Made by a program: the position numbers and the translations under genes. This document shows positions 5,928-64,000 of a stretch of DNA of 64,000 bases, one piece after another. The DNA is from Polyangiaceae bacterium. GTDB lineage: Bacteria; Myxococcota_A; Polyangia; Polyangiales; Polyangiaceae. How positions within the stretch are numbered: position 1 is the stretch's first letter; every line of letters starts with the position of its first letter. The notes beneath the pieces were generated by a model. It saw only the letters and a list, made by a program, of their open reading frames with translations. It made no database searches and was not told the origin of the DNA. The stretch covers positions 1 through 64,000 of the forward strand of contig JADLFU010000212.1 of NCBI GenBank assembly GCA_020849655.1, in the 5' to 3' direction.

Positions 5928-7427
5928 TCACCGGTACGAGGAGTTGAACCACCACTCGGCCTCGAGGCCGAAGAACTGCTCGACGTTGCGCCGCGCGTAC
6001 ACGTCGTCGGTCGCGTAGAGCTCGCGCGCGGCGTCGCTGCGGCGCGACAGGAGGAAGATCGCGCGGAGCTGCGGCCGACGGTACGAGCCGCGCCCCGAGG
6101 GGGAGAGGAACGGCACGACGCCGAAGCGGGTCATCGAGCCGCCCATCAGTCCGCCGCCGTCCGCGCGCAGGGCCGCGCGCTGCTGCGCCTGGTACGAGGC
6201 CTCGACGAACACGCCCGCGCGCTCGCCGAAGTAGAGGTGGGGCCGGACGACGAGGATGCCCTCGTCGAGGTGTGCGTAGTCGAACTTCTCCTTCGTCGCG
6301 GCGCGGAAGCTCCGCAGGTACCCCGCGACCTGCACGGCGACCGCGCCCGCCTCGAAGTTGCCCGAGATCGCGGCCACCGAGTCGGTCGCGCCCTTGGTGG
6401 TCTCGTCGAGGCGCAGCGCGTACGGCACCGCCAGATCGCCGCCGTACGCGGGCAGGCCGCGCGCGTGGCGGAAGAAGAGCGAGACGTGCGTGTCGCGCTC
6501 GCCGGTGAACCCCGTCACCTGCGCGCCGACGACGTAGCCCGAGTCCGACGGGAGCGCCTCGTAGCGCCCGGGCTGCGTCTCGCGCTGGCCCGACGGCAGC
6601 TGGTGCAGCTCCGAGTAGCCGACGAGCTTGACGCCGGCGCGCCCTCCCAGGCCGAAGATCTGCTCGACGCGGAGCGACTCGACGGTGCGCGGGCGATCGA
6701 GGATCAGCACGTCGGTCGCGCCGAGCTGGTTGCCTGGCAGCCCGCGGCGCGCCGTCTGCAGCTGGAAGGGATCGTCGAGGCGGTTCGCGCCGGCGTGGAG
6801 CGCGATCTGCGTGCGCGACCGCGGCAGATCGAGCCGCGCGCCGCCCCCGACGGTGTTGAGGTTGTCGAGCGGCCACCAGTTGAGCAGGTACGCGTCGTCG
6901 CCGCGGTACATGCGGCTGCCCGCCCAGAGCGCGAGGTCGGGCGACAGGAGGCCCTTCGCCTCGACGTACAGGTTGCGGACCGCGAGCGTCGCGTCGAACT
7001 TGCCCGAGCGGTGGAACAGCGGCTCGCCGATCGCGAGCGTCGCGACCATGCGCGTCGTCCACGGGTGCGCCTCGGAGGGGAGCTGGTACGAGTCCTCCCG
7101 GCGCAGCTCGAGCTCGGCGTAGCTGTCCTCGTCGAGGCGCGAGCCGTGCGCGACGAGGTCGGCGTCGCGCCCGCTGCGGCCTCGCCCATCGATCGCCGTC
7201 ATCACGCGCCCGTAGGATCCGAACGTGAAGCGCCCGGTGCGCCGCTCGCCGGAGGGCGTCGTCCACTCGGAAGGCGCCGTGCCGGGATCGTCGGCGCGCA
7301 CCGCCTTGACGAGCTGCATGGAGGGCGCGCGCTCGACGGGCGGGGGCGCGGCCTGCTCGGCCCCGGCGGGCAGCGAGAGGGTGGCGAGCGACAGCGCGAG
7401 CGCGGCGGCCCTGGACGGTCGAGACAC
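5928..7427 (-). CDS. Maltoporin-like (LamB family) outer-membrane porin
   Basis: 499 residues with a signal peptide (ALALSLATLSLPAGA). The body is rich in alternating beta strands and matches LamB layout: FGSYGRVMTAIDGRG near the N-terminus, YAELELRRED, an RMYRGDDAYLLNWWPLDN segment equivalent to the RFYQRHDVHMIDFYYWD region of LamB, and a C-terminal strand region FGLEAEWWF. Such trimeric porins pass maltodextrins across the outer membrane. First gene of the four-gene operon (porin, amylase, ATPase, deacetylase). GTG start. Identity rests on motif resemblance, so the substrate is inferred. Confidence 0.72.
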   Translation of the reverse strand: MSRPSRAAALALSLATLSLPAGAEQAAPPPVERAPSMQLVKAVRADDPGTAPSEWTTPSGERRTGRFTFGSYGRVMTAIDGRGRSGRDADLVAHGSRLDEDSYAELELRREDSYQLPSEAHPWTTRMVATLAIGEPLFHRSGKFDATLAVRNLYVEAKGLLSPDLALWAGSRMYRGDDAYLLNWWPLDNLNTVGGGARLDLPRSRTQIALHAGANRLDDPFQLQTARRGLPGNQLGATDVLILDRPRTVESLRVEQIFGLGGRAGVKLVGYSELHQLPSGQRETQPGRYEALPSDSGYVVGAQVTGFTGERDTHVSLFFRHARGLPAYGGDLAVPYALRLDETTKGATDSVAAISGNFEAGAVAVQVAGYLRSFRAATKEKFDYAHLDEGILVVRPHLYFGERAGVFVEASYQAQQRAALRADGGGLMGGSMTRFGVVPFLSPSGRGSYRRPQLRAIFLLSRRSDAARELYATDDVYARRNVEQFFGLEAEWWFNSSYR

Positions 7428-8911: not shown

Positions 8912-10858
8912 ATGAGACGCTCCTCCTTGGTCACCGGCCTCGCCCTCGCCTCCTGGTTCGTCGCGTGCGGCGGCGGCGCGGACGACACCTCGGGCCCGAG
9001 CGCCACCGCGGGCGCCGGTGGCAAGAGCGGCGCCGGGGGGGCTCACGCGGGGCGCGGCGGCGCGGGCCAGGGCGGAGCCAGCGGCGCCGGGAAGGGCGGC
9101 AGCAACAGCGCTGGCGGCGCGGGCGCCAACAGCGCAGGTAACAACAACGCCGGGAGCGCAGGCAACAACAGCGCCGGTAGCAACAGCGCGGGCAACAACA
9201 GCGCGGGCAACAACAGCGCGGGCAACAACAGCGCGGGCAACAACAGCGCGGGCAACAACAGCGCGGGGAGCGGGGGCGCGGCTGGCAACGCGGCGGCCGG
9301 CAGCGCGGGCAAGGCGACCGCGGGCAGCGGCGGCGGCGCAGGCAAGGGCGGCGCCGCGGCCGCCACCTGCGCCCCGGCGCCGGGCGGAGGGAGCGTCACC
9401 GTCCAGGCCCCGACGTTGAAGACGACGCTGAAGGACCGCTGGCAGGAGGCGTGGCAGGCCTCGCCCGCGGTGGCGGACCTCGACGGCGACGGCGTGAGCG
9501 AGATCGTCGTCGCGCGGGCGGACGTCCTCGTCATCTGGTCGCCCTCCGGCGCCGTGAAGGCGAAGGTGCCGACCGGCGGCGGGCGGATCTGGTCGAGCCC
9601 GGTGGTCGCCGATCTGCGCCCGGAGCCCGGCCAGGAGGTCGCGTTCGCCGCCGGGAACAAGCTGTTCGTGGTCGACGCGAAGGGCGCCGTGATGTCCGGC
9701 TTCCCGGTCACGTGGGTGGGCGAGCTGCGCAGCCTGGCGGCCGGAGATCTCGACGGCGACGGCGCGCTCGAGCTGGTGGTGGCCCCGGCGGACGGCGGCG
9801 ACTCGGGCGACGTGATGAACGCCTGGCACGCGGCGGACGGATCGAAGGTCGCTGGGTTCCCCCCGAACGCGACCGGCACCTCCGGGTGCGATGCCAAGTG
9901 TTACGTCGCCGGCTGCTACGACCAGAACGTCGCGCTCGGCGATCTCGACGGCGACGGCAAGGCGGACGTGGTGGTGGGCCATGACAACGCGTACGCGAGC
10001 TTCCACCGCGGGGACGGCGTCGCGTTCGACGCGAACGCGATGTTCACGAAGGTGAAGAAGACGCCGGGCGTGCGCTACTTGCACGATCTCGCGCTCTCCA
10101 TCCAGGGCTACGCCGACGACGAGGACACGGCCCTGCAGGCGCACTTCACCAACTCCGCGCCGGCCATCGCGGACGTCGACGGTGACGGCAAGCAGGACGT
10201 GATCCTGCTCGGCAGCGTGCAGAACGCGGCGCAGTCCGACCGCCTGAAGGGCGTGGGCCTGTGGGTGCTCCACGCCGACGCGAGCCGCCTCGCCGCGTGG
10301 CAGACGCCGTTCCACGCGCCCGACTACCTGGCGGGTTTGTGGGATTTCGACGGGACGAACGTCGTCGGCGCGACCAACCAGGTGTCGGTCGCCGATCTGC
10401 ACCCGACGCCCGGCCCCGAGCTCGTGTTCGCCGGGTTCGACGGGCGCATCCACGCGGTGTCGGCCGCGCGGCAGGAGCTCTGGGCGACCACCTACACGAC
10501 GGATCCGAATGTGCTGACGGGGGGCGTCGCGCTGGCCGACCTGTCGGGCGACGGGCGCCCGGAGGTCGTGTTCGCGACCTACAGCACCGACGCGGGCAAG
10601 GGCGCGCTGTTCGTCCTCGACGCGGGCGGCGCCGTGCTGCACGAGCTTCCGCTGCCCAGGCGCGGCGGCATGCCCGTCCCGACGATCGCGGACGTCGATG
10701 GCGACGGCGCCCTCGAGATCGTCGTCTCGCTGAAGGACGCCGAGGACAAGGTCGAGAGCGTGCGCGTGTACGGCGTCGCGGGCTCGTCCACGAACTGCCT
10801 GCCCTGGCCCACCGGCCGCGGGAACCCGCTGCGAGACGGGCGCCCCCAGCAGCTCTGA
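8912..10858 (+). CDS. FG-GAP/VCBS repeat surface lipoprotein
   Basis: 648 residues. Lipoprotein signal ending ASWFVACGG, then a ~140-residue low-complexity linker of Gly, Ala, Ser and Asn, including repeated NNSAG units. From about residue 165 follow FG-GAP-type blades with Ca-binding DxDGDG loops: VADLDGDGVSEIVV, AGDLDGDGALELVV, LGDLDGDGKADVVV, IADVDGDGKQDVIL, LADLSGDGRPEVVF, IADVDGDGALEIVV. These should form a beta-propeller outside the cell, perhaps for binding or adhesion. ATG 8912 is preferred because it gives the lipoprotein signal. Confidence 0.85.
   Translation: MRRSSLVTGLALASWFVACGGGADDTSGPSATAGAGGKSGAGGAHAGRGGAGQGGASGAGKGGSNSAGGAGANSAGNNNAGSAGNNSAGSNSAGNNSAGNNSAGNNSAGNNSAGNNSAGSGGAAGNAAAGSAGKATAGSGGGAGKGGAAAATCAPAPGGGSVTVQAPTLKTTLKDRWQEAWQASPAVADLDGDGVSEIVVARADVLVIWSPSGAVKAKVPTGGGRIWSSPVVADLRPEPGQEVAFAAGNKLFVVDAKGAVMSGFPVTWVGELRSLAAGDLDGDGALELVVAPADGGDSGDVMNAWHAADGSKVAGFPPNATGTSGCDAKCYVAGCYDQNVALGDLDGDGKADVVVGHDNAYASFHRGDGVAFDANAMFTKVKKTPGVRYLHDLALSIQGYADDEDTALQAHFTNSAPAIADVDGDGKQDVILLGSVQNAAQSDRLKGVGLWVLHADASRLAAWQTPFHAPDYLAGLWDFDGTNVVGATNQVSVADLHPTPGPELVFAGFDGRIHAVSAARQELWATTYTTDPNVLTGGVALADLSGDGRPEVVFATYSTDAGKGALFVLDAGGAVLHELPLPRRGGMPVPTIADVDGDGALEIVVSLKDAEDKVESVRVYGVAGSSTNCLPWPTGRGNPLRDGRPQQL
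9181..9267 (+). repeat. 15-bp tandem repeat encoding NNSAG
   Basis: CAACAGCGCGGGCAA repeats perfectly five times from 9181 to 9255, with a partial sixth copy. Degenerate copies extend on both sides (about 9124-9280). The unit is a multiple of three, so copy-number change would alter linker length without breaking the frame. Confidence 0.95.
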
Positions 10859-54288: not shown

Positions 54289-55161
54289 TCAGCCGGCGCG
54301 CTCCTGTGACAGCGCGCCGAGCCTGCCGGCGCGTGACAGCTGCGTGTAGCGCTGCGCCGCGAGCGCGGCCGCGCCGATCGCGCCGGCGCACTGGGCGTCC
54401 GGCGGGGCGACCACCCGGAGCGACTTGAACTTGCCCTTCTCCTCGCTGACCAGCGACTCGAGCGCCCGCGCGATCCCGGCGTTCTGCGCGAGGCCGCCCG
54501 TCAGGACGACGGCGCCCTCCGCGCCGACGGATCGCAGGAGCTTCGCGAGGCGCCCCGCGATGCTCTCGTGGATGCCCGCGAGGATGTCGGCCGTCGTGAT
54601 CCCGCGGCTGACCATGTTGATGACGTCCGTCTCCGCGAGGACGGCGCAGATGCTGGAGACGTCCTCCGGCGCCTGGGCCGTCAGGGAGAGCGCGCCCACG
54701 TCCTCGATGGGGACGCCTAGGTAGCGGGCGATGTTCTCGAGGAACTGCCCGCTGCCGCTCGCGCACTGGCTGGTCATCCGGTGGCCGAGCACCTTGCCGC
54801 GCTCGTCGATCTTGATGGCCCGCGCGTGGAGCGCGCCGATGTCGAGCGCGGCGCGCGCCTCCGGGCAGAGGACGGCGCCGCCGCGCCCGTGCGAGGTGAT
54901 CCCGTAGAAGTGCCCGGTCGTGAGGCCGGGCGCCTCGCCCTCGCCCGTGCTCGCGACGTAACAAAGCTGACGTCGCGTGACGCCCGCCGCGCCGCACGCC
55001 TCGTCGAAGGCCGCGCTCGCCACCTCGTGCATCATCCTGCGGCGGATGCGCTGGACGGAGGTCGCGAGCACCTCGACCTCCTGGCCGGCGCGGCTGCGGA
55101 CGACGGCGACCTTGACGGCGCTGGAGCCGAGATCGATCCCGGCGCTGAGGAGCTGTGTCAT
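54289..55161 (-). CDS. bcrD: Benzoyl-CoA reductase subunit D (ASKHA ATPase/activator)
   Basis: 290 residues. ATP-binding fold AGIDLGSSAVKVAVV, then the cluster-binding cysteines in TSQCASGSGQFLENIA and SICAVLAETDVINMVSRG, and VVLTGGLAQNAGIA. Together with BcrA it should bind ATP and a bridging 4Fe-4S cluster and push electrons to the BcrBC active site. Alone it would look like a 2-hydroxyacyl-CoA dehydratase activator; the flanking dch, oah and had genes decide for benzoyl-CoA. Last gene of the operon. Confidence 0.9.
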   Translation of the reverse strand: MTQLLSAGIDLGSSAVKVAVVRSRAGQEVEVLATSVQRIRRRMMHEVASAAFDEACGAAGVTRRQLCYVASTGEGEAPGLTTGHFYGITSHGRGGAVLCPEARAALDIGALHARAIKIDERGKVLGHRMTSQCASGSGQFLENIARYLGVPIEDVGALSLTAQAPEDVSSICAVLAETDVINMVSRGITTADILAGIHESIAGRLAKLLRSVGAEGAVVLTGGLAQNAGIARALESLVSEEKGKFKSLRVVAPPDAQCAGAIGAAALAAQRYTQLSRAGRLGALSQERAG

Positions 55162-55175
55162 CGTGGCTCTCCTTG

Positions 55176-56543
55176 CTAGCTTGCCTCCCGCGCGAACGCG
55201 GGCGTGACGAGGTTGACGCCGGCGCGCAGATCATCGAGCGCGAACAGCGCGGCGCCGAGCGCCCCCATGTAGATTGAGTTGGGATCGGTGTTGATGGTCA
55301 CCCCGGCGCCGTAGTTCTCGGCGACGAGCTCGCGCAGCACCTTCACCGCCATCGGGTTGTTGCATACGCCGCCCGTGAAGGTGAACTCGTCGAACACCCC
55401 GCCCGAGCGCGCCAGGAGCGACATCGCGCGCACCATGATCGCGCGGTGCAGGCCGGCGAGGATGTCCTCCCGCTTCTGCCCGAGCGCGAGGCGCTCGCGG
55501 AGCTCGGCGCTCGCGAACACCGTGCAGGTCGAGCAGACCTTCACGGTGCGCGTCGACTGCAAGGCGAGCGGGCCGAGCTCGTGGAGCCCCAAGCTGAGCT
55601 CGTCCGCGATGTAGCCGAGGTAGCGCCCGCAGCCGGCGGCGCAGCGGTCGTTCATCTGGAAGGAGGTGACGACCCCGCCAGCGTCGACCTGGATCGCCTT
55701 GGTGTCCTGCCCGCCGATGTCGAGCACCGTGCGCGTGCCGGGGCAGACCCGGTGCGCGCCGCGGCCGTGGCACAGGATCTCGCTGCGCACCGCCTCCTTC
55801 GGGAAGGGCAGGGTCTGGCGGCCGTAGCCGGTGCCGACGAACACGATCTCCTCGAGCGTCTCGGCGCTCGCGCTCTCGACGACGCGGTCGAGGGCGCGAC
55901 GGAGCGGCAGGCCCGCGCCCTCGTCTCGCTGCCAGACGCGGGCGCTCGCCCTGCGGAGCAGATCGGGGATGTCGCGCGAGAGGCGCCGCGTCTCGACGTC
56001 GAGGATCGCGCGGTCGAAGACCCCGACCAGCTGCTCGAACGGCGGCCCGCCCTCCCGCGCCCGCGCCTCCGCGCCGGCGACGAAGGCGGCGCCCGCGAGG
56101 TCCCGGAAAAAGTCGCTCTTGCGCGCGGCGCCCGGCAGGAAGTCCGCGGGCGCGCGCTCCCTGATGCCGTCGACGATGGCGCCGATGGCAGGCGCGAGCT
56201 CCGCGCGGCGCTCGCGGTGGACGAAGCTGCGCGACAGGGACGCGTGCATCGTCACGCGGAGCGCCTCCAGCTCCGCGAGGAACAGCTCGAGCCGGAACGC
56301 GCCGTGGAGCTCGTCGAGCTTCTGGCGCGCCAGCTCCGCGCCGGGGCCGTCGAGCGCCTGGGCGGCGCGCTCGACGAACGCGAAGCGCGCCGCGGTGTGG
56401 GCCTCGTCCCGCGCGACGGCGCACGCCACCTCGTAGTTGCTGCGGCTGTTGGTGATCCCCCTGCCGACGACGACGCCCTCCTCGTCGAGCATGACGGCCT
56501 TCGTGGTGGTCGATCCGAGATCGATGCCGACGACGCACCTCAT
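55176..56543 (-). CDS. bcrA: Benzoyl-CoA reductase subunit A (ASKHA ATPase)
   Basis: 455 residues. VVGIDLGSTTTKAVMLDEEG at the N-terminus, a ~150-residue insertion typical of BcrA/BadF relative to BcrD, then VLDIGGQDTKAIQVD, cluster Cys in NDRCAAGCGRYLGYIADEL and VCSTCTVFASAEL, and TFTGGVCNNPMA. ATP hydrolysis here powers the very low-potential electron transfer. ATG 56543 overlaps the bcrB stop (ATGA). Confidence 0.92.
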   Translation of the reverse strand: MRCVVGIDLGSTTTKAVMLDEEGVVVGRGITNSRSNYEVACAVARDEAHTAARFAFVERAAQALDGPGAELARQKLDELHGAFRLELFLAELEALRVTMHASLSRSFVHRERRAELAPAIGAIVDGIRERAPADFLPGAARKSDFFRDLAGAAFVAGAEARAREGGPPFEQLVGVFDRAILDVETRRLSRDIPDLLRRASARVWQRDEGAGLPLRRALDRVVESASAETLEEIVFVGTGYGRQTLPFPKEAVRSEILCHGRGAHRVCPGTRTVLDIGGQDTKAIQVDAGGVVTSFQMNDRCAAGCGRYLGYIADELSLGLHELGPLALQSTRTVKVCSTCTVFASAELRERLALGQKREDILAGLHRAIMVRAMSLLARSGGVFDEFTFTGGVCNNPMAVKVLRELVAENYGAGVTINTDPNSIYMGALGAALFALDDLRAGVNLVTPAFAREAS

Positions 56544-57835
56544 GACGCGCTCCGCTGGCGGCGCGCGTCGAGCATCTGCAGGAAGCTCTGCACGCGGTTC
56601 TCGATGTTGGCCTTGCCGAAGTACCGCGGATCGACGAGATCGGACTCGACGAACCCCCCGGCGACGCCCGTGCGCTCCTCCAGCTGCCGCAGCATCAGCA
56701 GCTGACCGACGCTGAACGAGTTGCAGGACTTGACGCTGTTGATCATGAACCCGTCGGCGTCGTACTCGCGGACGTAGCGCTCGAGGAGCTCGACGCGCTT
56801 CGGCAGGCTGAGGTTCGTGTAACAGCCGAGGCAGTAGTCGGCGAGGCTCTCGAGCGGTCGCTCGGGGTCGTGGCGAAACCCGCCGTCGTACAGGCCGCCG
56901 ACGCGCGTGTACGTGCTGGCGACGACGGTCGCGCCCTCGCGCGCGAACATGCGCCAGAAGTCGAAGAAGTGCGTCCAGCTCGGCGGGCCCTCGACGACCA
57001 GCCGGTAGCGCTCCTTGGCGCTCGGGCCGTCCGGCGTCACGGGGCCCTCCCCGGAGGCCATGCGCGCCTCGACCTCCGAGCGGAGCTCCCGGTAGTAGGC
57101 GACCGCGTCCTCGCCGCCGCGGAACGCGGAGAAGATCGGGCCGACGTAGTACACCCCGCCGAAGTAGCCGTCGATCGGCGAGGGGCGGTGCTTCGCGGAC
57201 TCCCACACCTTGACGAGATCGTGCTCGGCCTCGCGCGAGCGCGCGAGCGTGTCGGCGAGCACCGTGGGATCGAGCTTCTTGCCCGCGACGGCCTCGAGCG
57301 CCGGGATGACGGTGTCGACGAGCTGGCGCACCACGTAGGCGCGCATCTCCTCGGTGATCTCGCCGTTCGACTGGTAGGGGACGTGGAGCATCACCACAGG
57401 GCACTTGTAGTGTTGCTTCAGGAGCTCGAACCACTTCATGAAGGTGAAGCACCCCGTGTACGACAGCAGCAGCAGATCGGGCTCCGGCAGCGGCAGGCCG
57501 GTCGGCCCGATGTTGCCCTTCTTCATCATGCCGATGTCGCACTTGACGTAGGCGCAGACGTCCTCGGAGTGCCCGCCGCGCTCGGCCTCGTTGATGAAGC
57601 CGCCCGACAGCTTGCGCATGCCGGACTGCAGCGCGTTGATCTCGGGGAGCACGGGCAGCATCCCGAGGCTCGTGATGAGCTCGACCAGGTTGCCGGGGAC
57701 GAAGGTGTACACGACCTTCTTCCCCTCCTCCTTGGCCCTCGACAGCTTGTCGAAGTGCCCCGCGATCATGCGCTTCTGGCGGTCCTGGCTGGCGTCCTTG
57801 GCGGCCTTGTTCTCGCTGGGTTTGGTCTGGCTCAT
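56540..57835 (-). CDS. bcrB: Benzoyl-CoA reductase subunit B (catalytic)
   Basis: 431 residues. Member of the 2-hydroxyacyl-CoA dehydratase/BcrB family: VVYTFVPGNLVELITSLGM, CDIGMMKKGNIGP, LLSYTGCFTFMKWFELL (cluster Cys), VVMLHVPYQ, DYCLGCYTNLSLPKR and INSVKSCNSFSVGQLLM. With BcrC it binds benzoyl-CoA and the active-site cluster. ATG 57835 overlaps the bcrC stop (ATGA). Confidence 0.92.
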   Translation of the reverse strand: MSQTKPSENKAAKDASQDRQKRMIAGHFDKLSRAKEEGKKVVYTFVPGNLVELITSLGMLPVLPEINALQSGMRKLSGGFINEAERGGHSEDVCAYVKCDIGMMKKGNIGPTGLPLPEPDLLLLSYTGCFTFMKWFELLKQHYKCPVVMLHVPYQSNGEITEEMRAYVVRQLVDTVIPALEAVAGKKLDPTVLADTLARSREAEHDLVKVWESAKHRPSPIDGYFGGVYYVGPIFSAFRGGEDAVAYYRELRSEVEARMASGEGPVTPDGPSAKERYRLVVEGPPSWTHFFDFWRMFAREGATVVASTYTRVGGLYDGGFRHDPERPLESLADYCLGCYTNLSLPKRVELLERYVREYDADGFMINSVKSCNSFSVGQLLMLRQLEERTGVAGGFVESDLVDPRYFGKANIENRVQSFLQMLDARRQRSAS

Positions 57836-59022
57836 GCTGCACCCCACAGTTTGACGGAGTCGGAGAAGGCGCCCGCTTGCTCGCGGATCACCTGGAACTG
57901 ACCTGTGTTCTCTGCGAACTTGAAGCTCGTGAAGGGGACGCCCGCGGCCCCGAGCGCGGCCTCCAGCATCGGCTGGTCGAGGAGCGCCGGATCGCAGAAC
58001 GACGCCGCGGCGAACACGACGCCGTCGGCGCGACAGTCCTTCACCTTCTGCAGGAGCGCGGCGCCGTTCTCCCCTGCGCCGATGTAGCGCGACGCGGTGG
58101 CGGCCCCGCGCTCGAGGTACGCGGCCGCGAGCGCGTCGAGCAGATCGCCCGACGGGCGCTCCTCGTCGATGTCGCCCTCGATCATGCGCAGGCCGAGCAT
58201 GAAGTCGTCGTCGACGATGTCGCAGCCGGCCTTCTCGAGCGCGACGATGAGGTCGAGCGGCGGCTGCTCACAGAACGATCCGGTGACGACCACCCGGACG
58301 TTGTCATAGGGCTGGGCGTCGCGCTCCTTGACCCTCGCGACGAGCTCCTGGAGGAGCGCCGTGTGCTCCCGCGCGAGCATCAGCCCGCCCGCGCGCGCGG
58401 CGACGTACGCCTCCGAGGCGCGGATGAGCCACGGGGTCTCGACGCGCACCTCGTCGAGGGCCCGGAGCGCGGCGCGGCGCGCGTTCTCGTCGCGGATGGC
58501 GTCGCGGAGGCGCGCCTGATCGAGGGCCGAGGCGCCGCGCGCCGTGAGCTCGCCCGCGATGCGGCGGAGCTCCTGCGCGTAGAACCGGCCGCCGACGGCC
58601 ATGTCGAAGTTCTGTGGCAGATCGAGGTACGCCGAGTACTTCTCGGGGAAGAGCATCTGCCACATCCCGCCGAGGTTGCGGATGACGTCGCAGATGGAGG
58701 GGAAGAGCATCCCGTCGAACGCGTCGAGGCGGCCCGAGACCGCGAGCTCGATGGTGCTGCGCGGAATGTGACAAATGTAGGATTGGAAGTAGGAGTCCCC
58801 GCGGATGATCTCGAGCTGATCGCCGCCGCCGTGGATCGCGATGGGCAGGCAACCGAGCGCCTCGAGCAGCGGGCGGGGGCTGTAGATCGGCATGTGGCCG
58901 ATGACGAGGCGACCGGGGTTCGCGCCCTTCCAGGCGCGCACCTCCGCGAACGTCATGTCCTCGCACAGGGCGCGGGCGCGCGCGAGGACGGCGCCCGCCG
59001 GATCGTCGTGGGGGTGTGACAT
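57832..59022 (-). CDS. bcrC: Benzoyl-CoA reductase subunit C (catalytic)
   Basis: 396 residues. Same fold family as BcrB: VIGHMPIYSPRPLLEALGCLPI, YICHIPRSTIELAVSG, MLFPSICDVIRNLGGMW, FDMAVGGRFYAQELRRIA, VVVTGSFCEQPPLDLIVALE and FAAASFCDPALLDQ. Gene order C-B-A-D equals that of Thauera-type bcr operons. ATG 59022 overlaps the tetR stop and has a strong AAGGAGGA site. Confidence 0.92.
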   Translation of the reverse strand: MSHPHDDPAGAVLARARALCEDMTFAEVRAWKGANPGRLVIGHMPIYSPRPLLEALGCLPIAIHGGGDQLEIIRGDSYFQSYICHIPRSTIELAVSGRLDAFDGMLFPSICDVIRNLGGMWQMLFPEKYSAYLDLPQNFDMAVGGRFYAQELRRIAGELTARGASALDQARLRDAIRDENARRAALRALDEVRVETPWLIRASEAYVAARAGGLMLAREHTALLQELVARVKERDAQPYDNVRVVVTGSFCEQPPLDLIVALEKAGCDIVDDDFMLGLRMIEGDIDEERPSGDLLDALAAAYLERGAATASRYIGAGENGAALLQKVKDCRADGVVFAAASFCDPALLDQPMLEAALGAAGVPFTSFKFAENTGQFQVIREQAGAFSDSVKLWGAA

Positions 59023-59735
59023 CAGAGATCTCCTCCTTGGGGTGGTCGGAGCGGGGGGGGACGGTGGAGCGAGGTGGAGAGCGTCTCGGCGCGCAGCAGC
59101 GCGCGCCGGTCGGGGCAGCGCGCGACCAGCCCGCAGAGCGTCAGCCGGTGGACGCTGCGCGCGACGTCGGCGGCCGAGCCGTGCGTGGGCGCGTGGTGCC
59201 AGCTGTAGATCCAGTTGAGCATCCCGAAGAGGTTGTAGGTGGCGAGCTCGAGCTCGGCGTCGGCCACCTCCCCGAGCGCGCTCGCCGCGGGCGCGCCGCA
59301 GCCCTCGCGCGCGAGCGCCTGGAGCACGTCGCGCGCGACGGCGAAGTACGCCTCCTTCAGCTTGCGGATCTTCTTGCGGCGCTGGGGCGGGAGCGCGCCC
59401 GCCTCGTGCACGAGCACGCGCATCACGTCGCGGTGCTCGAGCACGTAGTGCACGTGGCTCGAGATGAACAAGTAGAGCTGCGTCGCCGCGTCGGGCGCCT
59501 GCGTGACGGCCTCGCTCGCGGAGCGGATGAGCGTGTCGAAGGCGTCGCGCTGCAGCTCGAAGAGCACGTCCTCCTTGGACTCGAAGTGGCTGTAGAACGT
59601 CGCGAGGCCCTTGCCCGTCGCGCGCGCGAGATCGCGCATCGTCATCCCGAAGTAGCCGTCGCGGGCGATCGCGGCCGCGGCCGCCTCGAGGATCTCGACG
59701 CGGCTCTGGGCGCCGCGGGCCGCGCGCGCGTTCAC
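59022..59735 (-). CDS. TetR-family regulator of the benzoyl-CoA operon
   Basis: 237 residues. N-terminal helix-turn-helix: RVEILEAAAAAIARDGYFGM, TMRDLARATGKGLATFYSHF, ESKEDVLFEL. The C-terminal ligand domain is typical of fatty-acyl or aromatic-CoA responsive members, and the end is Pro/Arg-rich. It lies between dch and bcrC within the operon; GTG overlaps the dch stop. The twin palindromes before had (62762-62808) are the natural operator, giving a self-controlled repressor. The inducer is perhaps benzoyl-CoA or a later intermediate. Confidence 0.88.
   Translation of the reverse strand: MNARAARGAQSRVEILEAAAAAIARDGYFGMTMRDLARATGKGLATFYSHFESKEDVLFELQRDAFDTLIRSASEAVTQAPDAATQLYLFISSHVHYVLEHRDVMRVLVHEAGALPPQRRKKIRKLKEAYFAVARDVLQALAREGCGAPAASALGEVADAELELATYNLFGMLNWIYSWHHAPTHGSAADVARSVHRLTLCGLVARCPDRRALLRAETLSTSLHRPPPLRPPQGGDL
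59031..59038 (-). promoter_or_regulatory. Strong ribosome binding site of bcrC
   Basis: AAGGAGGA on the minus strand, 8 nt before ATG 59022, inside the 3' end of tetR. It is stronger than most sites in the window and could raise reductase translation relative to the regulator. Confidence 0.7.
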
Positions 59736-60523
59736 CGGTCCTCCCAGCGGGGTGCGCGCTTCTCGAGGAAGGCGCGCACGCCCTCCGCGCCGTCATGGCT
59801 GGTGATGAACTCGTCCACGTACTGGCGGTGGAGCGCGTCGAGCACGTCCCCGACCGCCTGCTCCGCGCCGCCGGCGCGCCTCGCCGCCCGGGTCGCCTGG
59901 CGGAGCGCGAACGCGGACAGCCCCGCGAGGCGCGTGTCGTGCAAGTGCGCCGCGGCGCCGTCGACGTCGCCCGTCACGCGCTCCGCGAAGCCGCACGCGA
60001 CGGCGCGGTCGGCGGACAGCTCCTGTCCGGTGAGCAGCAGGCGCTCCGTGAGCGCGCCCCCGAGGCGCAGCGGGCCGAGCGCCGCGAGCACCGGGGGGAA
60101 GGCGCCGAGCTTGATCTCGGGGCACGCGAACACTGCCCTCTCCGTGACGAGGACGAAGTGGCAAGCGAGCGCGACCTCGAACGCCCCGCCGAGGCACTTG
60201 CCGTCGACCACCGCGACGACGGGCACCGGGTAGTGGACGAGCTCGCGGATGAGCGCGTGGAACCCGTCCAGCATCGCGGGCGCCTCCTGGGGTGTGTGCT
60301 CCGCGACGGAGGCCCCGAACGAGAAGTGCTCGCCCGCGCCGCGGAGGGCGACCAGGCGCAGGCGCGACGACTCGCGGTGGGCGGCGAGCGCCTGGCGCAG
60401 CTCGGCCATCATCGCCCCGGTGAGCACGTTGGCCTTGGGGCGATCGAGCGTCAGCGTCAGCAGCCGCTCGTCCGGATCGAGCGAGACGCGGACGAGCGGG
60501 GACAGGGGCGTCTCCGCCGTCAC
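59732..60523 (-). CDS. dch: Cyclohexa-1,5-diene-1-carbonyl-CoA hydratase
   Basis: 263 residues, crotonase fold. Segments HFSFGASVAEHTP, VVAVVDGKCLGGAFEVALAC (oxyanion-hole region) and ACPEIKLGAFPPVLAALGP are the Dch form of enoyl-CoA hydratases. It adds water to the dienoyl-CoA produced by Bcr. Family alone would allow other hydratases; the neighbours set the substrate. GTG overlaps the oah stop (GTGA). Confidence 0.87.
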   Translation of the reverse strand: MTAETPLSPLVRVSLDPDERLLTLTLDRPKANVLTGAMMAELRQALAAHRESSRLRLVALRGAGEHFSFGASVAEHTPQEAPAMLDGFHALIRELVHYPVPVVAVVDGKCLGGAFEVALACHFVLVTERAVFACPEIKLGAFPPVLAALGPLRLGGALTERLLLTGQELSADRAVACGFAERVTGDVDGAAAHLHDTRLAGLSAFALRQATRAARRAGGAEQAVGDVLDALHRQYVDEFITSHDGAEGVRAFLEKRAPRWEDR

Positions 60524-61629
60524 CCGAAGGCCTTGTCGCGGGCCGAGGGGGGCAGGACGCTGCGGATCAGCTCCTGGTCGAACGCCGCGCCCTCGGCGAT
60601 GGCGCGGCGCAGCTTGATGAAGTCGATCTCTCGCTCGTCCCTGGCGCCGAACTGGAAGGCGGGGAAGCCGGCCGCGGCCTCGGCGTTCATGTTGAGCGCC
60701 AGCCAGGCGCGGTTCGTCTCGCTGTTCTGGTACCAGTGCGCGAGCTTCTTCTTGCGCAGGCTCTCGATCGTCTTTCTGGCGCACTCCGGGAAGGTGTAGA
60801 GCAGCTTCGTCGCGAGCCGCTCGACCGCCTCGTCGAGGCGTGACAGGTCAATCGTGCACGTGGCGGCCAGCGCCTTCGCGGCCGCGGCGTCGTCGCCGGT
60901 CTTGTACTCGCCGTGGACGACGCGACCGAGGTCGTCCGTCCACCTGTCGGTCACGACGAACGGGTTGGCGATGAACGCCCCCTCCGCCGTGCGGTACACC
61001 GGGGCGGTGTCGTTGACGACGCCGAGGCGCATCGCCTTGTGCGCGGACCAGGGCTCGCAGAGGACGAGGGACTCCGCCGCGCGCCCGACGCCCACGAAGA
61101 GATCGAGGAAGTCCGTCGACCCGCCGTCGGGCGCGGAGCCGTGCACCGGGCCCGCCTGGCCGAACCGCGCGTGGTCGCCCGCGACCGTGTAGTCGCACGC
61201 CATGCCGATCTCCTGCCCGCCGGCGATGCGCATGCCGTTGACGCGGCATATGACGGGCTTGTCGCAGAGGAGGATGCCCGTCACCATGTCGTTGAAGAGG
61301 CGCATGTACTGCAGGTACTCGTGCGGCCTGTGGCGGTAGTAGGTGGCGTACTCCTCGGTGTTGCCGCCGGTGCAGAACGCGCGGTCGCCCGTCGCGGTGA
61401 ACACGACACAGGTCGCCGCGCGGTCGGCGCTCGCGCGGCGAAACGCCAGGATGACCTCGCGGACGGCGGCCGTCGTGTAGGAGTTGAGCTGCGCCGGGTT
61501 GTCGAGCGAGATCCACGTCTGGTGCAGGCCGTCGACCTCCTGCCCGGCCCTGTCCCTCACGGGGCGCTCCTCGTAGCGGATCGAGCGGAACTCGTAGTCG
61601 GGGACCAGCTCATGGTTCTTCAGTTGCAT
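60520..61629 (-). CDS. oah: 6-oxocyclohex-1-ene-1-carbonyl-CoA hydrolase (ring-opening)
   Basis: 369 residues from ATG 61629. Crotonase-like, longer than usual, with the Oah/BamA marks NHELVPDYEFRSIRYEERP, WISLDNPAQLNSYTT, DRAFCTGGNTEEYATYY, CRVNGMRIAGGQEIGMACDY and GPVHGSAPDGGSTDFL. It hydrates and opens the ring to 3-hydroxypimelyl-CoA. AGGAG seven nt before ATG 61629 rules out the ATG at 61656. Confidence 0.92.
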   Translation of the reverse strand: MQLKNHELVPDYEFRSIRYEERPVRDRAGQEVDGLHQTWISLDNPAQLNSYTTAAVREVILAFRRASADRAATCVVFTATGDRAFCTGGNTEEYATYYRHRPHEYLQYMRLFNDMVTGILLCDKPVICRVNGMRIAGGQEIGMACDYTVAGDHARFGQAGPVHGSAPDGGSTDFLDLFVGVGRAAESLVLCEPWSAHKAMRLGVVNDTAPVYRTAEGAFIANPFVVTDRWTDDLGRVVHGEYKTGDDAAAAKALAATCTIDLSRLDEAVERLATKLLYTFPECARKTIESLRKKKLAHWYQNSETNRAWLALNMNAEAAAGFPAFQFGARDEREIDFIKLRRAIAEGAAFDQELIRSVLPPSARDKAFG

Positions 61630-61678
61630 ATCGGGCTCCTGTGGGGTGAGTGACATGGATCGCGAGACCCATGGTGAG

Positions 61679-62746
61679 TCAGGGGGTGAGCACCATCCGC
61701 TGCTCGAGCCTGTGGTGCGCCATGTCGTCGAGCAGCTCGTTCAGCCGCGACATGGGCGCGACCTCGACGAAGGGGGCGACGGCGACCTCACCCTTCGCAA
61801 TCAGCCCGAGCACCGCCGCGTACGCCTCGGGCGGGCAGCCCCACGAGCCGTGCACGGTCGCGTCGTGCGCCATCAGGTTGGAGAGGCGCAGCTCGACGGC
61901 CTGCGGTGTGTAGCCCACCTGCACGAGCGTGGACGCGCGCCCGAGGAGGGCGAACGCGAGCTGTTGCCCCTGGGGCGTCCCGCTGCACTCGAAGATCTTG
62001 TGCCTGTGGCTCGGGGCGGAGGCGTCCTTGACGATCCCTCCGATCTCCTTGCGGAGCTCCTTCACGCCGCGGCCGTCGACGGCGACGCGTCGGTCGACGC
62101 CGAACCCCGCGAGCTTGTCCAGGCGCTGTCGGCTCACGTCGACGGCGACGACGGACGCGCCCAGCGCGCGGGCGATCTGCGCCACGTAGCCCCCCACGCC
62201 TCCCGCGCCGACGACGATCGCCACGTCGCCAGCCAACAGCTCAGCCCTCCGTGTCGCCTGGTACGCGGTCGAGACGGCGTCCGCGACGACGGCGAGGCTG
62301 AGGAGATCCTTCTCTTCGGGCGGCGGATCGATCGCCACGAGCGGGGCGGCGGCGACGAGCACGTGCCCGGCGAAGCCGCCGTGCGCGTCGTTTCCGGGCA
62401 TCGTCTGGCGCGTGCACGCGTTGCCGCGCCCGCGCGCGCACAGCTCGCAGGCGCCGCACGGCAGGACGGCCGGCACGATGACCGTCCGCCTGAGCAGCGG
62501 CGAGGCAGGGTCGCCCGCGGCCACGACGTCGCCGACGATCTCGTGCCCGAGCACGAGCGGCAGCGCGTGGCGAGGCGGGGTCTCGCCGGACGCGAACCCG
62601 AGATCCGTGTGGCAGAGGCCGCAGCCGCGCACGCGGACGACGACCTCCGTGGGGCTGGGGGCCGGAAGGACGAGCTCGCGCTGCACGAGCGGCGCCCCGG
62701 GCGTCTCGAGGAACCAGCCGAAGGTCGTGGTCGTGGTCGTGGTCAT
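61679..62746 (-). CDS. had: 6-hydroxycyclohex-1-ene-1-carbonyl-CoA dehydrogenase
   Basis: 355 residues. Zinc alcohol dehydrogenase family: RGCGLCHTDLGFASGE (catalytic Zn), LVLGHEIVGDVVAAG, structural Zn cysteines in CGACELCARGRGNAC, and NAD fold VVGAGGVGGYVAQIARALG. It oxidises the hydroxy-enoyl-CoA made by Dch. ATG 62746 begins MTTTTTTTFGW, coded by a short ACCACG-type repeat. First gene of the operon behind the twin palindromes. Confidence 0.88.
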   Translation of the reverse strand: MTTTTTTTFGWFLETPGAPLVQRELVLPAPSPTEVVVRVRGCGLCHTDLGFASGETPPRHALPLVLGHEIVGDVVAAGDPASPLLRRTVIVPAVLPCGACELCARGRGNACTRQTMPGNDAHGGFAGHVLVAAAPLVAIDPPPEEKDLLSLAVVADAVSTAYQATRRAELLAGDVAIVVGAGGVGGYVAQIARALGASVVAVDVSRQRLDKLAGFGVDRRVAVDGRGVKELRKEIGGIVKDASAPSHRHKIFECSGTPQGQQLAFALLGRASTLVQVGYTPQAVELRLSNLMAHDATVHGSWGCPPEAYAAVLGLIAKGEVAVAPFVEVAPMSRLNELLDDMAHHRLEQRMVLTP

Positions 62747-62761
62747 GTCGTGGTGCCTCGC

Positions 62762-62775
62762 CGAACGATCGTTCG
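62762..62775. promoter_or_regulatory. TetR-type operator 1 upstream of had
   Basis: Perfect palindrome CGAACGATCGTTCG, 16 nt before the had start codon, expected to cover the transcription start. It repeats the core of operator 2 with centres 32 bp (about three helical turns) apart. Confidence 0.8.
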
Positions 62776-62792
62776 CTGAGCAAAGGTGAAAG

Positions 62793-62808
62793 CCGAACGA
62801 TCGTTCGG
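62793..62808. promoter_or_regulatory. TetR-type operator 2, between -35 and -10 of had
   Basis: Perfect 16-bp palindrome CCGAACGATCGTTCGG. On the minus strand a -35-like TTGACC occupies 62812-62807, so a bound repressor would block RNA polymerase. The -10 element is weak to the eye. Confidence 0.8.
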
Positions 62809-63044
62809 TCAAGCGCAATGTTCGCGCGTCGACGCGCTGCGGGTGGGGAGGCGTCCTCGCGCGGAGCGGGGGAGCGTCGTGCGCGGCCGCGTCATGCGAC
62901 GAGGCGGACGGCGCTCCGCGGTGCGGTGGTTGACTCACCGGGGGGCTCGTTGTTGAAGCGCCCCAGGTTCTGTCGGGGCCGATCCCTCCCCCGTGGCGAT
63001 GCTCCCACGGGCGACCGCGGCCTCGATCCTTCGAGGAGATCCCC

Positions 63045-64000
63045 ATGACCACCCGCACGCCGCTCACCGCCCTCACCGCGCTGCTGCTCGTCGCCCCGTC
63101 GGCGCTCGGCGCGCCCGTGGTCTCGGCCCCCCTCGACGTCGCGCCGCGGCGCTTCGTCCCGTCGACCTACACCTCGGAGCCCATCACGTCGTTCGCCGCC
63201 GGCGGCGGGGCGATCGCGGTGCTCACGGCCGGTGGCAAGCTCACGCTGCTCCACGAGGATCTGTCGTTCATCGGCGAGCCGCAGGAGCGGGCGGTGGGCG
63301 CGGTGAGCGTCGGGTACGACGGCGCCAACTTCCTCCTCGCGCGCCTCTCGGGGCAGCCTCCGCAGGGCAACAAGACGTACCTCGCGGCGCTCCAGCTGCA
63401 GCGCGTCGCGCCGGACGGCGCGGTGGTCGACGCCGCGATCACGCTCGGCGACGTGCACGAGAGCGGGGTGTTCGACGCGCCGGTCGCGATCGCGTGCAAG
63501 GCGGTCGGAGACTGTCTCGTCGCCTACTCGCTGCGCCTCTACGGCAGCGGCGGGACGACCGAGAAGGATCTCTGGGTCGCGCCAGTGAAGGACGGCAAGC
63601 CCGGCGCGTCGGTGAGGCTCACCACCGCCGCGAGCGACCAGATCACGCCGTCGATCGCGTGGGACGGCGCGAGCTGGATCGTGGCCTGGGTGGATCTGCG
63701 GTTCGCGAGCTACGACGCGCCCGACTACAAGGGCACGCAGCTCTACGGCGCCCGCGTGAGCCCGGAGGGCGCGGCGCTCGATCCCATCGGCGTGCCGCTC
63801 GCGACCTACGCCGAGGTGGCCGACAACCCGAGCGTCACGGCGTCGACGCGTCTCCCCCGGGGGCTCGCGCTCGCGAACAGCGGAGGCACGACGCTGCTCG
63901 CGTGGCGCGGCTCGAGCTCGCAGCGGGTGGTCGGCAGGCGGCTCGCCGGAGATCTGTCGTCGCCCGACGCGGCGCCGATCGTGCTCGCCACCCCGGGCCC
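63045..64000 (+). CDS. Exported beta-propeller-like protein, N-terminal part (runs off right edge)
   Basis: 318 codons are open from ATG 63045 to the window end, with GAGGAGAT upstream. Signal peptide LTALLLVAPSALGAPVV. The body has repeats of the type WDGASWIVAWVDLR, SVGYDGANFLLARLSG, and GTTLLAWRGSS, separated by 50-60 residues, as in many myxobacterial secreted propeller proteins. Function unknown. It is divergent from the benzoyl-CoA operon, with about 300 nt between. Confidence 0.8.
   Translation, partial: MTTRTPLTALTALLLVAPSALGAPVVSAPLDVAPRRFVPSTYTSEPITSFAAGGGAIAVLTAGGKLTLLHEDLSFIGEPQERAVGAVSVGYDGANFLLARLSGQPPQGNKTYLAALQLQRVAPDGAVVDAAITLGDVHESGVFDAPVAIACKAVGDCLVAYSLRLYGSGGTTEKDLWVAPVKDGKPGASVRLTTAASDQITPSIAWDGASWIVAWVDLRFASYDAPDYKGTQLYGARVSPEGAALDPIGVPLATYAEVADNPSVTASTRLPRGLALANSGGTTLLAWRGSSSQRVVGRRLAGDLSSPDAAPIVLATPG

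Follow-up and report, generated by a model that had tools for sequence, protein, structure and literature searches.

Twin palindromes upstream of a class I benzoyl-CoA reductase operon in a Polyangiaceae bacterium as the very probable operators of the operon's own TetR-family regulator

The window analysed here is a stretch of 64,000 bp from a Polyangiaceae bacterium of the phylum Myxococcota_A (contig JADLFU010000212.1 of assembly GCA_020849655.1), in which an operon for benzoyl-CoA reduction is preceded by two copies of one palindrome. Which protein docks on these palindromes, and what does it control? What is known of how bacteria regulate the anaerobic breakdown of aromatic compounds comes, to our knowledge, from a few cultivated species. 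Judging from sequence comparison, the palindromes are very probably the docking site of the TetR-family regulator encoded within the operon, and with it the on/off switch of that operon.

The operon, had-oah-dch-tetR-bcrCBAD, lies on the minus strand and, according to the NCBIfam models, encodes an ATP-dependent (class I) benzoyl-CoA reductase. All genes expected of a Thauera-type operon (bcrA, bcrB, bcrC and bcrD together with dch, oah and had) were recovered as best NCBIfam matches; had, oah, bcrC and bcrB score above the curated cut-offs, and dch, bcrA and bcrD are best matches below them (Table 1). As the original prediction had it, a gene for a TetR protein of 237 residues is part of the operon. 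Neighbouring genes mostly overlap by a few bases, which places tetR within the transcription unit presumed to be controlled by the operators, so that the repressor would limit its own synthesis.

Table 1. Positions of the operon genes and putative control elements in the window, and of the related operon in genome G059
Feature	Position	Strand	Basis and remarks
Operator 1 (farther from had), CGAACGATCGTTCG	62794..62807		Exact match; 16-bp palindrome 62793-62808; in the presumed -35/-10 spacer; kept with the TetR gene
Operator 2, identical 14-mer	62762..62775		At the presumed transcription start; 15 nt to the had start codon
-35-like hexamer TTGACC	62807..62812	-	Sequence; overlaps operator 1
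Presumed -10-like hexamer TCACCT	62784..62789	-	Presumed from sequence; 17 nt after TTGACC, between the operators; weak, 3/6 to TATAAT
had, 6-hydroxycyclohex-1-ene-1-carbonyl-CoA dehydrogenase	61679..62746	-	TIGR03201, 389 bits, over cut-off
oah, 6-oxocyclohex-1-ene-1-carbonyl-CoA hydratase	60520..61656	-	TIGR03200, 519 bits, over cut-off
dch, cyclohexa-1,5-dienecarbonyl-CoA hydratase	59732..60523	-	TIGR03189 best match, 221 bits, below cut-off 292.5; operon position
TetR-family regulator, 237 aa	59022..59735	-	TetR_N + TetR_C_24; overlaps dch by 4 bases and bcrC by 1; model pLDDT 89
bcrC, class I benzoyl-CoA reductase subunit C	57832..59022	-	TIGR02263, 440 bits, over cut-off
bcrB, class I benzoyl-CoA reductase subunit B	56540..57835	-	TIGR02260, 664 bits, over cut-off
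bcrA, class I benzoyl-CoA reductase ATPase subunit A	55176..56543	-	TIGR02259 best match, 537 bits, below cut-off 578
bcrD, class I benzoyl-CoA reductase ATPase subunit D	54289..55161	-	TIGR02261 best match, 307 bits, just below cut-off 312.85
tetR-bamB-bamC-bamD-like operon (G059)	L150 5968-10388	-	Operator ~15 bp before tetR

Between had, which starts at 62746 on the minus strand, and an unrelated plus-strand gene beginning at 63045 lies the intergenic region 62747-63044. Within 46 bp of this region, upstream of had, the 14-mer CGAACGATCGTTCG occurs twice without a mismatch. Both copies are perfect palindromes, of 14 bp and, with one more base pair on either side, of 16 bp, and the direct repeat GCCGAACGATCGTTCG recurs there at the same spacing of 32 bp that separates their centres, or about 3.05 helical turns of 10.5 bp. 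The predicted doubling of the word, its extension to 16 bp at one site, the distance of three helical turns and the overlap of the upstream palindrome with a -35-like TTGACC were thus all borne out. Reading toward had on the minus strand, the order is TTGACC, 17 nt that include operator 1, TCACCT, operator 2, 15 nt and the ATG. A simple sigma-70 scan of the had upstream region returned no promoter with 9 of 12 matches, so the -35 and -10 names given to TTGACC and TCACCT are presumptive.

Regarding the rest of the genome (6.56 Mb), the 14-mer has ten exact copies against 0.12-0.75 expected under Markov models of orders 1-5, and 67 places lie within two mismatches against four for a reversed control. 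The eight copies outside the had promoter comprise six within predicted open reading frames, four of which read Glu-Arg-Ser-Phe, and two in intergenic DNA; no other pair among the ten shares a contig. The word is also over-represented in the reading frames themselves, with six coding copies where fewer than one would be expected in all. Since it is commoner than simple models predict, a single copy means little, and what distinguishes the finding is the tight pair at one promoter together with its conservation. The original prediction had named frequency across the genome as a point that would count against it; the eight further copies do so weakly, but they are mostly coding. Its proposal to find the whole regulon by scanning with the 14-mer did not succeed, as these copies mark no aromatic regulon: the two intergenic ones adjoin TauE/Sel1 and competence/PAP2 genes, neighbours without known aromatic function. 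One coding copy (L017) stands 43 bp upstream of a crotonase-like gene and might conceivably be functional. The contig of the best benzoate-CoA ligase candidate, C141, has no site within one mismatch and none among the two-mismatch places listed, so not all pathway genes would belong to the regulon.

In order to see whether the palindrome goes with the regulator gene or with the reductase genes, relatives of TetR were drawn from named genomes and from relatives of the window, BcrB was drawn from 377 genomes of the phylum (profile thresholds of E up to 1e-30 for TetR and up to 1e-60 for BcrB), and 56 stretches around TetR or BcrB genes were read. TetR was found in 24 of the 377 genomes and BcrB in 59, the latter including G399 and G219, which at 33-34% identity are probably not BcrB. 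All TetR genomes except one also have BcrB (23 of 24; Fisher 8.9e-20 over the 377 genomes, kinship uncorrected). In the 450 bp upstream of had, 18 of 18 bcr operons with the TetR gene have a site that matches at 11 or more of 12 positions, against 1 of 28 without it (Fisher 6.7e-12; five of the 18 belong to one genus and three to another). Within 200 bp of had the same test gives 17/18 against 1/28, and a looser consensus allowing one mismatch gives 18/18 against 3/28. Six operons that lack TetR have a BcrB 73-77% identical to that of the window, as close as those of operons with TetR, and none of the six reaches 11/12. Overall, the comparison supports the view that the presence of the palindrome follows the tetR gene and not the bcr genes, and it lends the predicted role of the palindromes as operators of this TetR its comparative support. 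It also bears on the idea that a genome rich in G+C, in which CGA/TCG words are frequent, produces the 14-mer by itself. The excess over expectation and the mostly coding, often Glu-Arg-Ser-Phe-encoding copies do indicate that simple models underestimate its frequency; the pairing of two copies in 46 bp of intergenic DNA, and a site at the corresponding place in 18 of 18 operons with a TetR of the window type, nevertheless make such an artefact of chance or composition extremely unlikely.

Several loci stand outside this 18/28 comparison: L094, L114 and L147 (TetR-bearing contigs that stop short of the promoter), L118, L101 (which has the site but no detected had), L120 (the other promoter of G165, with its sites), L077 and the beta-proteobacterial loci (which have sites but were outside the draw), L071-L075 (judged to be the same genomes as L109, L103, L106, L105 and L108), the distant L098 and L150, and the TetR-lacking contigs L112, L115, L126, L144, L152 and L153, which have no usable had upstream region. 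G001, of the same genus as the window, has no close homologue of the window's TetR (best E 1.8e-8). In G124, the TetR gene (L118) lies beside genes that read as ABC-transporter-like and hydroxyacyl-CoA dehydrogenase-like, and no operator was found at that locus. In G114, two sites away from the operon (L156, L164) are flanked by genes of no evident aromatic function.

The doubling of the site is less widespread than the site. A second strong site at +32 was found at three promoters, that of the window and the had and bcrC promoters of G165 (L120, L121), a genome of another family; each G165 pair consists of one form-B and one form-A site (the forms are defined below), and in L121 a third, weaker one is found at +66. 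A weaker second site lies at +17 to +21 in L076, and the remaining promoters have one main site each. As most promoters are single-site, the 32-bp twinning is lineage-specific, and two phased sites are not essential to the system. It is therefore conceivable that one palindrome of the window is the working operator and the other a spare, the 32-bp phasing being without function. The single-site relatives speak for this; the recurrence of the exact spacing at two promoters in another family, and the perfect symmetry of both window sites, speak against it, and we regard a spare second site as possible but rather unlikely. The bcrC operon and the tetR gene of G165 are on different contigs and both promoters have the twin sites; the sites at the bcrC operon, off the tetR contig, fit a repressor acting in trans.

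The operator occurs in two forms. Form A, CGAACG-NN-CGTTCG, is that of the window and of five beta-proteobacterial loci, with the centre AT in four of these and CT in L069. Form B has ACGAACGTTCGT at its centre, is often lengthened to CGAACGAACGTTCGTTCG, and occurs at most loci of Myxococcota as well as in L076 and L078. The 18-bp form B holds two form-A sites offset by 4 bp and might, on that account, take two staggered dimers. Within one mismatch, the 18-bp form is present in 8 of 26 genomes, all with TetR (8/19 with TetR, 0/7 without), and in the five genomes of genus g95 it is exact and single genome-wide, at the had promoter in all five. A covariation of the recognition helix with the operator, in which Gly-Leu-Ala-Thr-Phe-Tyr accompanies an AT-centred operator in all six loci having it, comes from few lineages and was left uncounted. 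Other placements were seen in single genomes. In G088, a one-mismatch operator (L155, contig C31, 1501-1518) precedes the gene of an acyl-CoA dehydrogenase by 38 bp; the cluster also includes a benzoate-CoA-ligase-like gene, and this operator is possibly a second target of the regulator. In L097, an extra operator (10118-10135) with its own FNR-like box directly before tetR, inside the had-bcr operon, suggests an internal promoter. In L077, the operator and promoter-like elements (6886-6925) are so near the had ATG that the had mRNA could be leaderless.

The site is not confined to operons of the class I reductase. In four of seven beta-proteobacterial loci the exact 14-mer precedes tetR-bamB, and a variant does so in the other three. 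The protein after TetR in one of them (L068) matches the benzoyl-CoA reductase of PDB 4z3w, which we take to be BamB of Geobacter, with 1094 bits; iron-sulfur, HdrA-like and NuoF-like proteins follow, as in bam clusters, and in the other loci the proteins stand in the same order, judging by their first residues, as far as the contig reaches. Within the 377 genomes, G059 is the only TetR genome without BcrB, and there tetR is followed by three proteins reading as BamB, BamC and BamD (Table 1). Its BamB matches 4z3w with 1103 bits, and its TetR is only 27% identical to that of the window. A further distant TetR (28-31%), in G017, adjoins 4-hydroxybenzoyl-CoA reductase-like and BcrB-like genes and has a form-B-like site. 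As the operator is found with tetR at both bcr and bam genes, it goes with the regulator and not with one enzyme. One putative TetR repressor-operator pair, probably responsive to aryl-CoA, is common to two unrelated reductase classes. These loci also help to weigh whether the palindromes bind a different regulator, be it another TetR or a global factor, while the tetR of the operon acts elsewhere. With 20 TetR_N matches in the genome another TetR is conceivable, and the eight further exact copies of the 14-mer could be counted in its favour. However, the site is tied to the operon's tetR and not to the bcr genes (18/18 with tetR, 1/28 without), and it remains with tetR where that gene adjoins bam genes; we consider a different regulator improbable. 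The operon's own TetR is retained as the candidate in what follows.

The protein itself has the hallmarks of its family: PF00440 (42.8 bits) and PF17932 (65.1 bits) both score over their cut-offs, and the AlphaFold model, computed from a 19-row alignment (pLDDT 89), is all-helical. The nearest solved structures include 3ccy, PfmR, 3him, BkaR, AibR with isovaleryl-CoA, KstR2 and FadR with stearoyl-CoA, and since several of these bind acyl-CoA, the model is compatible with an aryl-CoA ligand. PfmR of Thermus thermophilus (3vpr) matches by sequence with E 9.5e-18 and by structure with Z 20.5 (rmsd 2.3, 183 aligned). PfmR, AibR, FadR and BkaR differ from the window's TetR, to which they are about 31% identical or less, in operators and ligands.

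Among described regulators, the closest in operator is PaaR (TTHA0973) of Thermus thermophilus HB8, which is described as a TetR repressor of phenylacetate genes with phenylacetyl-CoA as effector and with two operator consensuses, CNAACGNNCGTTNG derived from its promoters and AACNAACGTTNGTT obtained by in-vitro selection (PMC6651687). The window sites fit CNAACGNNCGTTNG, the form-B variant fits AACNAACGTTNGTT, and the relatives fit either of these consensuses. The two systems share the TetR family, the operator match, an aromatic-CoA pathway and a regulator gene inside its own operon. They differ in that the PaaR pathway is phenylacetate degradation with an oxygenase, whereas here the operon encodes a class I benzoyl-CoA reductase, and in relatives a class II enzyme; a paa gene neighbourhood of the PaaR type was not found at the locus, where the genes are those of had-oah-dch-tetR-bcrCBAD. 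MbdR of Azoarcus sp. CIB is described as a TetR repressor of anaerobic 3-methylbenzoate genes with 3-methylbenzoyl-CoA as inducer and operators that span promoter elements (PMC4424350), and is thus like the present regulator in family and in serving an anaerobic benzoyl-CoA-type pathway. The MbdR operator ATACN10GTAT has no place within one mismatch in the window. Its structure (4uds) aligns with the TetR model at Z 16.1 (rmsd 2.8, 181 aligned, 14% identity) and is not among the best 60 of 64 sequence matches of the window's TetR. BamVW, which also regulates a benzoyl-CoA pathway, belongs to another family than TetR. BzdR and BoxR serve the same or related pathways but are of the XRE type (PMC4424350), and BadR is a benzoyl-CoA pathway regulator but of the MarR type, with the operator CAAN4TTG (PMC9795900). 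In the open-licence papers searched, the 12-mer and 14-mer operator words were not found in print. Benzoyl-CoA reductase and Myxococcota came together there in a single paper, on magnetosomes to judge by its title, and searching these papers for TetR with benzoyl-CoA reductase, bam or bcr yielded MbdR and otherwise work that does not appear to treat the window's regulator (PMC5109826, PMC11887813, PMC9795900).

A second kind of element accompanies the operator at many promoters. An FNR/CRP-like box, TTGAY-N4-RTCAA with at least 9 of 10 matches, lies upstream of the operator in 16 of the 31 promoters examined, a score that shuffles attain in 0-7% per promoter. Its distance from the operator centre is -19 in L066-L070 and L101, -36 to -41 in L095, L096, L097 (two promoters), L099, L110, L113 and L122, and -48 and -52 in L116 and L111, respectively. 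The same scan of 31 promoters found no box at the window, in G165 or in genus g95. Anaerobic benzoate genes elsewhere are under FNR-type control (AadR, AcpR), and the separate box could report anoxia. The tie that the original prediction drew between the twin sites and the oxygen sensitivity or ATP cost of the enzyme is speculation.

Taken as a whole, we propose that one repressor dimer, on operator 1, would cover the -35/-10 region of the had promoter and another, on operator 2, the transcription start, so that the entire had-oah-dch-tetR-bcrCBAD unit would be held low, the repressor gene included (negative autoregulation). An aryl-CoA, most likely benzoyl-CoA or a ring-reduced thioester derived from it, would bind the C-terminal domain of TetR; the ligand-bound protein would leave the DNA, and the operon would run. 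With sites 32 bp apart, both dimers would sit on the same face of the helix and may cooperate. Binding, repression, promoter elements, ligand and cooperativity are what we infer from the letters and their conservation, and we hold it highly likely that TetR, on both palindromes, represses the operon and itself and is released by aryl-CoA. A broader reading, to which we give about an even chance, is that of a portable aryl-CoA switch whose DNA letters are almost unchanged between the ATP-driven class I reductase of Myxococcota and the tungsten class II reductase of Rhodocyclales-type bacteria and G059. About half of the promoters would add the FNR/CRP-like box and could thereby respond to substrate and anoxia jointly, and promoters like those of the window and G165, without the box, would use two phased operators instead.

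For Myxococcota known mostly from metagenomes, these results provide a concrete candidate regulator, operator and ligand class. The pair occurs, notably, in two phyla and beside two classes of reductase. One regulator appears to have been put to use again for a different reductase chemistry, and the operator may be used as a search tag for new aromatic-CoA operons.
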